54,688 nucleotides of DNA from Treponemataceae bacterium (GTDB taxonomy: Bacteria > Spirochaetota > Spirochaetia > Treponematales > Treponemataceae). Positions 26,695 to 54,688 of the stretch are shown piece by piece; the first letter of the stretch is position 1; every line of letters starts with the position of its first letter. A program made the position numbers and the translations under genes. Under the pieces are notes generated by a model, which made no database searches, had not been told where the DNA came from, and worked only from the letters and a program-made list of their open reading frames with translations. The stretch spans positions 1 through 54,688 of the forward strand of contig JAILBN010000075.1 of the NCBI GenBank assembly GCA_024680915.1. Direction: 5' to 3'.

Positions 26695-28263
26695 CTATTT
26701 TAATTTCGATTCTCTATATTCTGTCGGAGTAAGACCGAATTCCTGCTTAAAAAGCTTACTGAAATAGTTCTGATCATTATAGCCGACATCGGATGCTATT
26801 TCCTTGATGATAAGCCTGTCATCAAGAAGAAGCTGCTTGGCTTTCTCCATTCTCAGCGCAGTTACATAAGCTATGAAATTCGAGCCTTTCTTTTCCTTGA
26901 AGAGCTTGCTAAGATAAAAGGGGCTGACATTCAAGTAGGAGCTGAGCTGCTCAAGGTTTATATCCTGGGAAATGTGGCTTTCGATATATGAGCAGGCTTT
27001 TTGTATTATGGGGTTCATGGAGTCTTCCTGTATTGCAGCAATGGCACCGGCACACTCCATACATCTGTCCAGAATAAAATGTTCTATATCAGCCTGCTTG
27101 TTAGCGGATATCAAAGTGGAGAAAACAGTATCAAAAGCCGAGTTTGTATATGAAGGTTCTAATTGCAGGACAAAACTCCGGGCATTCAAGACAAGCTCAA
27201 AGACGCTGTTCTTGATTCTGTCAGGTTCCTTTTCGTATAGCTTGAATAGATGAGAAGAATATTCGGAGACTAGTCTTTGTAGACTTAATTTATCAGCAGC
27301 TTTTACCCTGGCAAGGATACGCTGGGATAAATTCTTTACGGAATTCGAAAGCTTATCATCGGAAATCTTTATATCCTCAAAAAAGCCTATCCCCCCCTCC
27401 GTAGGTAAGTTCGAAAGAACAGTCATCGCATTATTATAAGCCTGGGAAGCTTTTGCTATTTCTGACTCAATCTCGCTTATTCCAATTCTTATGCCAGAGG
27501 AGATTTCCATAGAAAGCATAAGATGAATAGGATTCATAATCATTTTTCTGTAATCATCATCATTTTTTTTACTTGCATCAGGAACAGTGATATAGACACC
27601 TACTCTGTTATTCATAAAAGAGCCGATTATACAACTGCACTTTGAAGTGAATATATCCCGAAGCTTGACGTAGCTTTTATAGCGCACTTTATTCATACCC
27701 TCTGGTATCTCAATACAACACATAAAATAATCTTTATCCTCAATTTTGAAATATTTCAAATAGGTTGAAAGATCCGTGGTTGTATTGTTATTGAATATGC
27801 AGGAATAGATAAAATCGCTTTCCACAATGGATGAAACGAAATTAAGCTTTTCATACATTTCTATATTGGTAGAAAGCTGTCCCTTCTGTTCATCCACAAG
27901 GTTCATAGCATTACGGATAGTCTGAATTATAAGATTCCTGTTCACGGGTTTTGTAAGATACTTAAAAGCACCCAAATTTATCGCTTCCTGGGCATATTCG
28001 AACTGGTCATAGGCACTGAGGATTATGACTATTATATTCTGGTTTATCTGCTTTATAAGGTTTATAGCCTCAAGACCGTTTATTCCCGGCATATGTATAT
28101 CCATAAAGATTATGTCGATTTTTTCCTTATGCACTATGTTCAGGGCTTCTGGACCTGACAGGGCAGAGAAAATTCTGACATCCTCCCCAAAATTCCGCTT
28201 GATAATAAGGGTAAGGGAATCAATTACAATCTGTTCGTCATCAGTCAATAAAAAACTATACAT
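26695..28263 (-). CDS. AraC-type response regulator (YesN-like)
   Basis: A 522-residue two-component regulator. The receiver domain (residues 1-120) has the acidic pair DDE at 8-10, the phospho-acceptor Asp in IIFMDIHMPG (near 55) and a conserved Lys in YLTKPVN. A long middle region of helices with no clear domain (about 140-400) is followed by an AraC-type double helix-turn-helix at the C terminus (IASDVGYNDQNYFSKLFKQEFG near 485-506). It overlaps the histidine kinase gene by 8 bases, so the pair is translated together. Probable target: the chvE-gguAB promoter nearby. Confidence 0.92.
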   Translation of the reverse strand: MYSFLLTDDEQIVIDSLTLIIKRNFGEDVRIFSALSGPEALNIVHKEKIDIIFMDIHMPGINGLEAINLIKQINQNIIVIILSAYDQFEYAQEAINLGAFKYLTKPVNRNLIIQTIRNAMNLVDEQKGQLSTNIEMYEKLNFVSSIVESDFIYSCIFNNNTTTDLSTYLKYFKIEDKDYFMCCIEIPEGMNKVRYKSYVKLRDIFTSKCSCIIGSFMNNRVGVYITVPDASKKNDDDYRKMIMNPIHLMLSMEISSGIRIGISEIESEIAKASQAYNNAMTVLSNLPTEGGIGFFEDIKISDDKLSNSVKNLSQRILARVKAADKLSLQRLVSEYSSHLFKLYEKEPDRIKNSVFELVLNARSFVLQLEPSYTNSAFDTVFSTLISANKQADIEHFILDRCMECAGAIAAIQEDSMNPIIQKACSYIESHISQDINLEQLSSYLNVSPFYLSKLFKEKKGSNFIAYVTALRMEKAKQLLLDDRLIIKEIASDVGYNDQNYFSKLFKQEFGLTPTEYRESKLK

Positions 28264-51847: not shown

Positions 51848-53572
51848 ATGAATATTTTCGCTGATTTCCTTCCTGAATTCATGCATTTCAACGCCATAGA
51901 CGGCGCTAACCTAATCCTTTTATTAAGTATAATTCTTCTTCTCGGTGCTATGGGCGGAAGACTTTTCCAAAAGCTTAAGATTCCCCAAGTTGTGGGATAC
52001 ATCGTTATAGGTATAATAATAGGTCAATCCGGCCTGCAACTCCTAAGGAAAGAAGTTATTACCGCCTTGGATCCTGTAAGCCAAGTAGCCCTTTCCCTTA
52101 TAGGCTTCCTAATTGGTGGAGAGCTTAAAATAGGCGTTTTGAAAAAATATGGTAAGCAGTTCATAGGTATACTGCTTTTCGAAGCTATAATTCCCTTCAT
52201 AGTGGTTTCAATCATAGTAACCCTTGTTTCCTATCTTTTCACAAAGGACCTGAACGTCTCTATAGCACTGGGAATTATCCTTGGTTCTATATCTTCAGCT
52301 ACAGCACCTGCCGCCACAACAGATGTTCTCCGGGAGAACAGGACCCGCGGCCCCTTAACGACGACAGTGCTTGGAATCGTCGCAATGGATGACGCCGTTG
52401 CCCTTATCCTTTATGCTTTTTCTTCATCTATAGCCTCCGCCCTCTTGGGTAATACAAACAGCTCCCTGGGCGCTCAGCTGCTCCATCTTTGCTATGACGT
52501 TTTTGGTTCCATTCTTCTTGGCTCTGTCATAGGCTTCCTTCTAAGCCGCTTCATAAAAAATGTGATGACAGACGAAGGGCGCATCCTGGCTTTCTCCCTG
52601 GGTTCCATTTTCCTTTCCACAGGAATATGCACCTTGATAGATATGGACAACATTCTTGCCGCCATGTCAATAGGCTTTTTCATGGTCAACTTTGCACCGG
52701 TAAAAACCCGACCGACCTTCTCCTTGGTAGAGAAATTCACTCCTCCCATCTATGTTCTTTTTTTCGTTCTTGTTGGAGCAAAGCTTAATATATGGAACGT
52801 TACAATCTTCGTGGGAGTAATCGCCCTTATTTACATTGCCTGCAGGACAATAGGAAAAACCATCGGTGCCAGGATGGGTTCTCGAATAACTAAGGCACCG
52901 GAGACTGTAAGGAAATACCTGCCCTGGTGTCTACTTAGCCAAGCTGGTGTTGCCATAGGTCTTTCCATAGCCGCCGGACAAACCTACAGCGACACAATAG
53001 GTTCCACCATAATCCTCATAATCACAGCCACGACCTTCGTTGTTCAGCTATTGGGCCCTGTCTGCGTAAAATACGCCGTCAACCACGCAGGCGAATGTAA
53101 TCTTGACATCTGCGAGGAAGATATTATGAAGACATGTAAAGTGAGCGAGGTAACTTCCGGTGGAATATCGATTTGCGATGAAGCTTCCCCTGCAATCGTC
53201 ACAGACACGACGAGCCTGCACGAAATCCTTGACTCTTTCAGTCATAACCACAATTTGAACTACGTGGTAAAAAACGGAGAAGGAAAGCTTTCCGGCATCA
53301 TAACCCTTGATCATCTTAAAGAATGTCTTCAAATGATGGACTTCTCAGAAGGTCTTATGGCTATGGACATTCTTGAACCTTGTCCTGTGACTTGCAATCC
53401 GGACATGCTTATTCCCGATGTACTCAAACAGTTTGACGAGAACGACACAGAAGCCCTGCCGATAACTGACGAAAACGGAATGCTGCTCGGTGTCATTGAA
53501 AAACCGGCTGTAGATCACTATCTTCACGCAAAGGTAATGGAGCTTCACAAAAAAATCGCAAGCCTGGGATAA
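51848..53572 (+). CDS. CPA2-family cation:proton antiporter with CBS pair
   Basis: A monovalent cation/proton exchanger. The first 400 residues hold about 12 membrane segments with LGAMGGRLFQKLKIPQVVGYIVIG (near 34-57) and the DDAVAL transport-site motif (near 180). A soluble C-terminal part carries two CBS modules (about 430-560; LHEILDSFS...GIITLDHLK and the LGVIEKP segment), which commonly bind adenosine ligands. The combination suggests regulation by ATP/AMP or c-di-AMP; the latter is tempting as cdaA is in the window, but no proof exists. Preceded by a promoter and AGAGG site. Confidence 0.9.
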   Translation: MNIFADFLPEFMHFNAIDGANLILLLSIILLLGAMGGRLFQKLKIPQVVGYIVIGIIIGQSGLQLLRKEVITALDPVSQVALSLIGFLIGGELKIGVLKKYGKQFIGILLFEAIIPFIVVSIIVTLVSYLFTKDLNVSIALGIILGSISSATAPAATTDVLRENRTRGPLTTTVLGIVAMDDAVALILYAFSSSIASALLGNTNSSLGAQLLHLCYDVFGSILLGSVIGFLLSRFIKNVMTDEGRILAFSLGSIFLSTGICTLIDMDNILAAMSIGFFMVNFAPVKTRPTFSLVEKFTPPIYVLFFVLVGAKLNIWNVTIFVGVIALIYIACRTIGKTIGARMGSRITKAPETVRKYLPWCLLSQAGVAIGLSIAAGQTYSDTIGSTIILIITATTFVVQLLGPVCVKYAVNHAGECNLDICEEDIMKTCKVSEVTSGGISICDEASPAIVTDTTSLHEILDSFSHNHNLNYVVKNGEGKLSGIITLDHLKECLQMMDFSEGLMAMDILEPCPVTCNPDMLIPDVLKQFDENDTEALPITDENGMLLGVIEKPAVDHYLHAKVMELHKKIASLG

Positions 53573-53608: not shown

Positions 53609-54270
53609 TCACTTTTCGCGGGGAAACACGTAAGTTTCGTAAAGCTTCATACAAATTCTGTACCCCGCGAAGCTTACGACCGCGCTTATCATTTTGTCTG
53701 TCAAGTTCGTAAGGAAACCTACGATGTATGTCGCGAACACTAGGTTTGGCACGGCCGTATAAACGCTAAGTATACCGGAGTCGATTTTTGGCGTGGTTAC
53801 AGAAGAAAACAGAACGTCAGAAATGATGTTTCCCAAAACGGCATTGCTAAGCGCGCTCCACAACCCCGCCCACAAAAACGTGTCTATTTCGTAAAGCGGC
53901 TTGCCCCCCCCGTACATCTGTATAGTACTTTTCGTCGGGATGAATAATGAAAAACACCCCAAGCCAAAAATGACGTAAGCATGTGGCACGACATAAACGG
54001 GAGCATCGTATAATCAAAAACAGTCAATATTCCGTTGGAAAGGACGGCGCACAAAAGCCCCGCCCACAATCCGCTTGTAGCTGTCACCATAATCGTAAGT
54101 ATTGAATCAAGATATAAAGGTACCATTAAATCACTTACAAGAATACAGCCAGCGCAATTCGCAAGCAGCGCCACTGCAAAAACGCAAAAGTGAAAAACAA
54201 GCTGCGACGGCTTTAATCGTTGTGAAGGTTCGCTTTTTTCGCGCAATGCTGAAAAATCATCAATATTCAT
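53609..54270 (-). pseudogene. Multi-pass membrane protein (ECF S-component-like) split at a G8 tract
   Basis: Two overlapping frames are halves of one membrane protein. The first (ATG 54270, about 119 residues to RRKVLYRCT) has helices and LDSILTIMVTATSGLWAGLL; the second continues as KPLYEIDTFLWAGLWSALSN with further helices and ends in PREK at 53609. They join exactly if the run of eight G (minus strand, 53911-53904) had nine, giving about 220 residues. The two halves contain similar WAGL-x-x-A-x-LSN modules, an internal repeat resembling ECF-transporter substrate proteins or related sensors. Its start overlaps the response regulator stop by 4 bases. It may be phase-variable, decayed or a base-calling error. 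Confidence 0.7.
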
Positions 54271-54688
54271 ACAATTACTCCGAGCGTTTTCGCAATATCA
54301 ATCAAATCAAGGCGGTCGCGAATTCCAAGCTTCTGATAAATCAGTGATTTTTGGTTTGCCACCGTTTTTTCTTTTTTGCCGAGTATTTCAGCAATCTCAT
54401 ACGTTTCTTTTTTCTGTGCTAAAAGCGCAAAAAGTTCCTGCTCGGTTTTTGTAAGCGTCCGCCAGTCTGCATATAGCTGCATCTGACGGCTGTCATCATT
54501 CTCACGAGAATTCCCAGACAGAAGGTTTCTTATAATTTTACTAATTGCAGAACCGTAATAGTTTCTTCCCCCTGCAACGGCAAGAAGCGCCTGCTCAAGT
54601 TCCGCAAGCTTCGTCTTTTTCGTGACGTATCCCGCGACTCCTGCTTTAAGAGCGTTTTCTACATGAATCGGATCAGCGTACATCGTAT
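54267..54688 (-). CDS. NarL/LuxR-type response regulator (5' part outside the window)
   Basis: Only the last 140 or so residues are in the window. The visible receiver end has SMYADPIHVENAL-like sequence and GYVTKK with the conserved Lys; then a linker and a LuxR-type helix-turn-helix (LTKTEQELFALLAQKKETYEIAEILGK, KTVANQKSLIYQKLGI). The frame remains open to the window edge, so the first part of the receiver with the phospho-acceptor lies outside. It is coupled by ATGA to the membrane protein downstream, which suggests a shared signalling role. Confidence 0.85.
   Translation of the reverse strand, partial: TMYADPIHVENALKAGVAGYVTKKTKLAELEQALLAVAGGRNYYGSAISKIIRNLLSGNSRENDDSRQMQLYADWRTLTKTEQELFALLAQKKETYEIAEILGKKEKTVANQKSLIYQKLGIRDRLDLIDIAKTLGVIV

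Follow-up and report, generated by a model that had tools for sequence, protein, structure and literature searches.

Is a gene that is split by a run of eight G residues switched on and off by that run, or has it been broken by accident, either in the cell or in the assembly? This question is raised by a membrane-protein gene near the end of the window, by which we mean the whole stretch of 54,688 nucleotides analysed here, i.e. the complete contig C118 of a 3.15-Mb genome in 134 contigs. An earlier note on this DNA had suggested phase variation, by analogy with the poly-G tracts of Treponema pallidum. Here, we weigh this suggestion against several other explanations, and the weights that we give to all of them are a matter of judgement.

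The frame change sits at the only G/C run of eight in the window

The gene is encoded on the minus strand. Its 5' piece (53884..54270), which resembles an S-component-like membrane protein, starts with an ATG at 54270 and runs over 128 codons into a premature stop at 53884-53886, just past a homopolymer that occupies exactly 53904-53911 in the window sequence and reads C8 on the plus strand, i.e. G8 on the coding minus strand. The 3' piece (53609..53903) continues this gene in another frame and stays open down to the expected stop at 53609. Searched separately, the front and back pieces match the respective halves of one 220-amino-acid homologue, L015, and the profile NF045596 is matched in its front by the 5' piece (E 4.7e-07, 29.6 bits) and in its back by the 3' piece (E 1.8e-04, 21.2 bits), both being weak matches against a cut-off of 180. 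Since a single profile and a single homologue thus cover both pieces, one after the other, the lesion sits at the G8 run. This run is the sole G/C run of eight in the window, and its coincidence with the frame change is unlikely to be fortuitous. Runs of seven G are not rare in the window, where GGGGGGG has 3 matches vs 4.14 expected from shuffles.

The start of the membrane-protein gene shares four bases (54267-54270) with the ORF of a LuxR/NarL-type response regulator (54267..54688, minus strand), the N-terminal part of which is lost at the contig end. The regulator is recognized by its GerE domain (E 9.4e-11), together with a partial, sub-threshold match to Response_reg. Indeed, the claim of the earlier note that a G8 tract splits a membrane-protein gene beside a LuxR-type regulator is confirmed by the position of the frame change and by the match of both halves to L015. 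On the other side of the gene, a CPA2-type cation/proton antiporter with CBS domains (51848..53572, plus strand) is the convergent neighbour; it is not part of the two-component system and is found in the same place at L015. A DNA search found no second copy of the split gene in the window's own genome.

Relatives keep the gene intact behind a histidine kinase and a regulator

What does the unbroken gene look like, and what may its product do? The closest relative, L015, a MAG from the rumen of a water buffalo, carries the label Spirochaetaceae and has 82% DNA identity to the window; the next four (L016-L019) are MAGs labelled Treponema, and the window's organism is probably a rumen-related treponeme as well. 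In all five of these closest homologues the gene is intact, with 202-220 codons, its start overlaps the end of the regulator by 4 bases, and a histidine kinase precedes the regulator, the kinase of L015 being incomplete as it is cut by the contig end. For L016, Pfam assigns the kinase to HisKA_3/HATPase and the regulator to Response_reg/GerE; we take the kinases tested, HisKA_3/HATPase in type, to resemble NarX/LiaS.

In a search at the level of the family, the gene was matched in 52 of the 195 sampled genomes. Among the 30 matches listed, 29 loci are not the window itself (including two repeats, at the places of L015 and L017), and 23 of these 29 have matches to both kinase and regulator. In the remaining loci, a lone regulator match occurs once, next to a contig edge, and elsewhere one or both partners are missing or the S-like domain forms part of a longer ORF. 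L096, L103, L105 and L106 have this domain joined to a kinase that follows it in the same protein; for L096 and L105 this was seen by Pfam, for L103 and L106 by blastp only.

The structural model of L015 has a mean pLDDT of 64.8 with seven helices listed, compared with the six or so membrane helices expected of an S component, and its four best fold matches in the PDB are RibU S components, with TM scores of 0.48-0.66 at weak E-values of 0.046-0.19; sequence relatives in the PDB were absent at E up to 1. Based on the order of kinase, regulator and S-like gene in relatives, on the fusions to kinases and on this low-confidence model, the membrane protein is probably the detached receptor half of a two-component system. 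It would thus be a receptor-like protein of the inner membrane and apparently not a surface antigen.

Two known systems invite comparison. The first is that of the S components of ECF transporters, with CD3073 (NF045596) as the closest named family, the profile of which is matched by both window pieces and by three intact homologues; unlike the CD3073 S components, these homologues score far under the curated cut-off of 180 (35.1-41.4 bits), and the gene has a kinase and a regulator as neighbours. As described in the part of PMC11109136 available to us, a group of sensor kinases has membrane domains with the fold of S components. As in the sensor kinases of the 5TMR/LytS type treated there, the S-like domain is joined to a kinase in some relatives; here, in contrast, it is encoded by a separate gene behind kinase and regulator, and the tested kinases are of the HisKA_3/HATPase type. 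PF07694 had no Pfam match in the window or among the kinases tested.

The kinase expected before the regulator would lie beyond the end of the window's contig. With the partial L015 kinase as query, we found only distant kinases in the own assembly, at 27% identity. The proposed coupling of the membrane protein to a LuxR-type regulator is backed by the adjoining regulator and by the kinase-regulator pairs of 23 of the 29 listed loci, and it stops short of the kinase in the own assembly, where we would still expect one to be encoded. The contigs of the window (at 54688) and of L015 (at its start) both end within the operon, in the regulator here and in the kinase there, which may reflect an assembly-breaking repeat upstream.

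The split gene shows no sign of decay

Has the gene already begun to degrade? Compared with L015, dN/dS amounts to 0.138 for the 5' piece and 0.139 for the 3' piece, and both values fall within those of three intact pairs (0.089, 0.157 and 0.178); the regulator has a value of 0.025. The agreement of the two halves is in itself no test of gene death, because both halves would drift after death, and for this reason we used the intact pairs and a relative-rate test. Among the columns in which three outgroups agree, this test counted 1 change in the window only, 2 in L015 only and 49 columns that differ in both, i.e. no excess of amino-acid change on the window's branch. Neither piece contains a second frame break. 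Thus, the gene is without sign of decay, which leaves a lesion that arose recently, that can revert or that does not exist. The suggestion that the run breaks a gene still under apparent selection agrees with a dN/dS inside the range of the intact pairs.

These observations bear directly on a settled loss, in which the gene would be inactivated and in early decay, the receptor being no longer needed. Such a loss would fit the patchy presence of the gene in the family and the copy in genome G177, which is broken too and has no homopolymer at its break; its kinase ORF is shortened, and the 5 kb examined contain no regulator match. However, the window's gene has acquired neither a second break nor an excess of changes, and we consider a settled loss to be quite improbable.

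Is the length of the run correct?

An artefact of sequencing or assembly would equally leave a gene without relaxed selection: the consensus length of the G run would be wrong and the true gene uninterrupted. Sequencing errors are indeed reported to be commoner in polyG/C tracts (PMC10013896, in the part available to us). In addition, by eye, copies of the same gene in two one-contig genomes break near homopolymers, namely near a T7 in G093 and near a T8 in G137. Against an artefact speak the other homopolymers of the window. The window holds 53 homopolymers of at least 7, and, the G8 excluded, 37 of them lie within ORFs of at least 120 codons, where ORFs were judged by length; 26 of these 37 sit at least 30 codons from both ORF ends, with five of length 8. 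The sole other G/C run of 7, at 27391, is a G7 in an open ORF. A general homopolymer error is unlikely as the cause, because these 37 other homopolymers sit in open ORFs; the consensus looks sound at A/T runs, and for G/C runs the check rests on one other case. Taken together, we regard a miscounted run as unlikely, with perhaps one chance in a handful.

The run is private to the window's species among the homologues examined

The G8 run lies in a variable, poorly conserved linker between the predicted fourth and fifth helices, with the helices placed according to the L015 model, which is of low confidence. Is the run shared by relatives? We compared 34 rows, consisting of L015-L019 and the 29 non-window loci among the matches listed, with one genome per species. 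The longest G run in the linker is 1-3 in 34 of 34 rows, and over the whole S-matching ORF it is 3-5 in the 29 non-window loci among the 30 matches listed. The linker of L015 contains no homopolymer above 3. The G8 is thus private to the window's species among the homologues examined. The linker as such tolerates homopolymers without breakage of the gene, because A7 or A8 runs occur in the same linker with the gene open in 7 of the 34 rows (L017, L018, L053, L074, L080, L081 and L082); A8 is found in L017 and L018, and L053 repeats L017. By eye, none of the other split-looking copies (G177, G093 and G137) is broken at a G run. A search for a closer species or a second strain in seven genomes of the genus matched only the own genome and G001.

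No homologue examined, then, carries the G run. The earlier note had named an intact gene at a site that is no homopolymer as evidence against a switch, and L015 presents exactly this; across the close homologues the same is true for G runs and fails for homopolymers of any kind, in view of the A8 of L017 and L018.

Can the two frames be joined during expression? If ribosomes or RNA polymerase slipped at the G run in a programmed manner, a short product and a full one would result, and indeed eight G's are a possible slip site and the second frame is conserved. However, the intact homologues need no slippage and lack the run, so that a conserved slip site, as expected of a programmed frameshift, is not found among them. 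Recoding sites evolve under purifying selection, according to the part of PMC3711429 available to us. We consider programmed slippage very improbable.

The explanation that we favour, and to which we would give nearly an even chance, is a slip that happened recently and incidentally at a newly arisen run and that can probably be reversed. The gene would be the third of a kinase/regulator/S-component-like operon and would encode its membrane receptor half. The eight-G run would have arisen in the window's species, in the linker that connects helices 4 and 5, and recent replication slippage there would have shifted the reading frame in the population that was sequenced. This would leave a 128-residue fragment without the last helices; the signal input would probably be lost, with kinase and regulator remaining. 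As the run would be mutable, this state could probably revert, and the cells may be a mixture of on and off. Such a mixture would be the by-product of an unlucky run and not an evolved switch.

Comparison with Treponema pallidum and with long G runs genome-wide

Could selection instead keep the run as a slipped-strand switch of the receptor and of the response of the system? Such an evolved phase-variable gene has a precedent in T. pallidum, where 24 of the 46 polyG/C tracts of at least 8 are reported to vary, one of them inside the chemoreceptor gene mcp1 (PMC10013896). The tracts described in the available parts of PMC10013896 and PMC7864442 are found in promoters (tp0126, the tpr genes and tprL) as well as in coding regions (mcp1, TP0127 and TP0969). 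Like these, the window's run is a G/C run of at least 8 in a treponemal ORF and affects the frame, and mcp1 is a sensor gene as well. Hence, the feature expected of a phase-variable gene, a homopolymer of about eight or more that decides the frame, is present. Unlike the situation in T. pallidum, the run is absent from the relatives examined, measures G8 only, belongs to what is apparently no surface protein, and resides in a genome in which runs of at least 9 are not significantly in excess.

To place the run in its genomic context, we counted G runs of exactly 6, 7 and 8 and of at least 9, runs of length 8 or above having been merged manually. The expectation was a geometric tail from the G7/G6 ratio (own or pooled), a simple calculation on small counts. 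Three sister species carry long runs in large excess: the counts of G6/G7/G8/G>=9 are 78/10/6/9 in G001, 60/4/5/11 in G002 and 29/2/4/11 in G003, so that 9, 11 and 11 runs of at least 9 were seen vs less than 0.2 expected in each (P 7e-13 to 3e-30). A nominal excess was also obtained for G004 (2 seen, 0.01 expected, P 3e-5) and G006 (1 seen, P 0.01), and none for G005 (P 0.2). For the own genome, with counts of 251/31/9/2, the runs of at least 9 are not in significant excess, with 2 seen vs 0.54 expected (P 0.1), or vs 0.38 with the pooled ratio (P 0.056). Its 9 runs of G8 compare with 3.8 expected from its own G7/G6 ratio and 3.05 from the pooled one (P 0.004), and this mild over-representation leaves room for retained tracts.

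The own genome contains 11 runs of at least eight G, the window's included. The runs at C8, C33 and C117 are in or opposite ORFs that stay open, the run at C83 is near the uncertain start of an open ORF, and four further runs are outside ORFs longer than 132 codons. Two runs coincide with frame changes or offset starts, those at C41:1944 and C100, and the G9 of C100 (L088) is found toward the 5' end of a lipoprotein ORF, in a switch-like manner. In the first case (L085, G000:C41, 1944-2250), the frame of a large surface-protein-like ORF changes at a C9 run and changes again some 250-300 bases further along, this time away from any G/C run of 8.

Promoter-spacer tracts in related genomes

Where do the long runs of the sister species lie? 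We defined a spacer tract as one preceded by a TTGACA-like box with at most one mismatch and followed by a TANNNT box. In G001-G003, sigma70-type promoter spacers harbour 17 of the 46 tracts of at least 8, and 16 of the 31 of at least 9; according to pattern matching, 11 of the 17 precede an ORF with a lipobox. Spacer tracts of G8-G11 were read at L112, L115, L120, L121, L124, L127, L133, L135, L139, L141, L142, L143, L149, L151 and L153. None of the 10 other tracts of the own genome and none of the 8 read from G004-G006 is of this type. Of 59 related genomes, 19 contain matches to a strict promoter pattern, 39 sites in all; the spacer lengths of 14-21 peak at 16-17 and 19, and a reversed-pattern control matched none. 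The own genome gave no match to the strict pattern and one G6 site with a looser pattern. The same promoter arrangement is reported for the G tract of T. pallidum tp0126, where promoter tracts vary in length (PMC7864442, in the part available to us). Thus, promoter-embedded G runs in 19 of 59 genomes suggest that the mechanism of the syphilis treponeme is widespread among its relatives, some of which may be easier to study.

The analogy with T. pallidum that the earlier note had drawn is hence borne out for the genus, by the excess in G001-G003 and by the tracts at lipoprotein promoters and 5' ends, and not for the own genome, where runs of at least 9 are not significantly enriched. An evolved switch of the window's gene draws its support from that excess, much of it at promoters or lipoprotein 5' ends, and from the variable tracts of T. 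pallidum. It is weakened by homologues without the run, by an own genome with neither a significant excess of long runs nor a promoter-type tract, by the mid-gene location in an apparently inner-membrane protein, and by a length of eight, which is the lower edge of what varies in T. pallidum. Retention of the tract in orthologues, as expected of a slipped-strand phase-variable gene, is not observed; in the scheme described in the available part of PMC3711429, a phase-variation cluster needs at least five homologous cases, and singletons are filed as pseudogene or error. We judge the evolved switch unlikely. A related scenario, which we find rather doubtful, is that this rumen-related genus carries poly-G contingency loci, many in lipoprotein promoter spacers, and that the window's species has extended this repertoire to a two-component receptor gene, its cells randomly switching signal sensing. 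Should the run vary, a commensal treponeme would switch a signal input, a less usual target of phase variation than a surface antigen. Our search of the literature on phase variation in rumen treponemes returned only T. pallidum, general or unrelated work.

Tracts of other kinds were seen alongside. By eye, a G9 lies between the ATG and the signal-peptide region of outer-membrane-protein- or lipoprotein-like ORFs at L144 and L145 (both G001) and at L088 (G000:C100); L144 and L145 have nearly identical leaders, one in frame and one out. Likewise by eye, a G9 in a Gly-rich linker splits a lipoprotein-like ORF at L146 (G001:C73), and a G10 splits a membrane acyltransferase-like gene at L117 (G003:C8). 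In the related two-component system of L096 (G009, another genus), the S-domain kinase fusion has a G9 at its 3' end, immediately ahead of the GTG with which the regulator begins. Finally, at L119 (G003:C9, about 2007-2015), a G9 was noted by eye just ahead of a CRISPR-like array and behind a cas2-like ORF.
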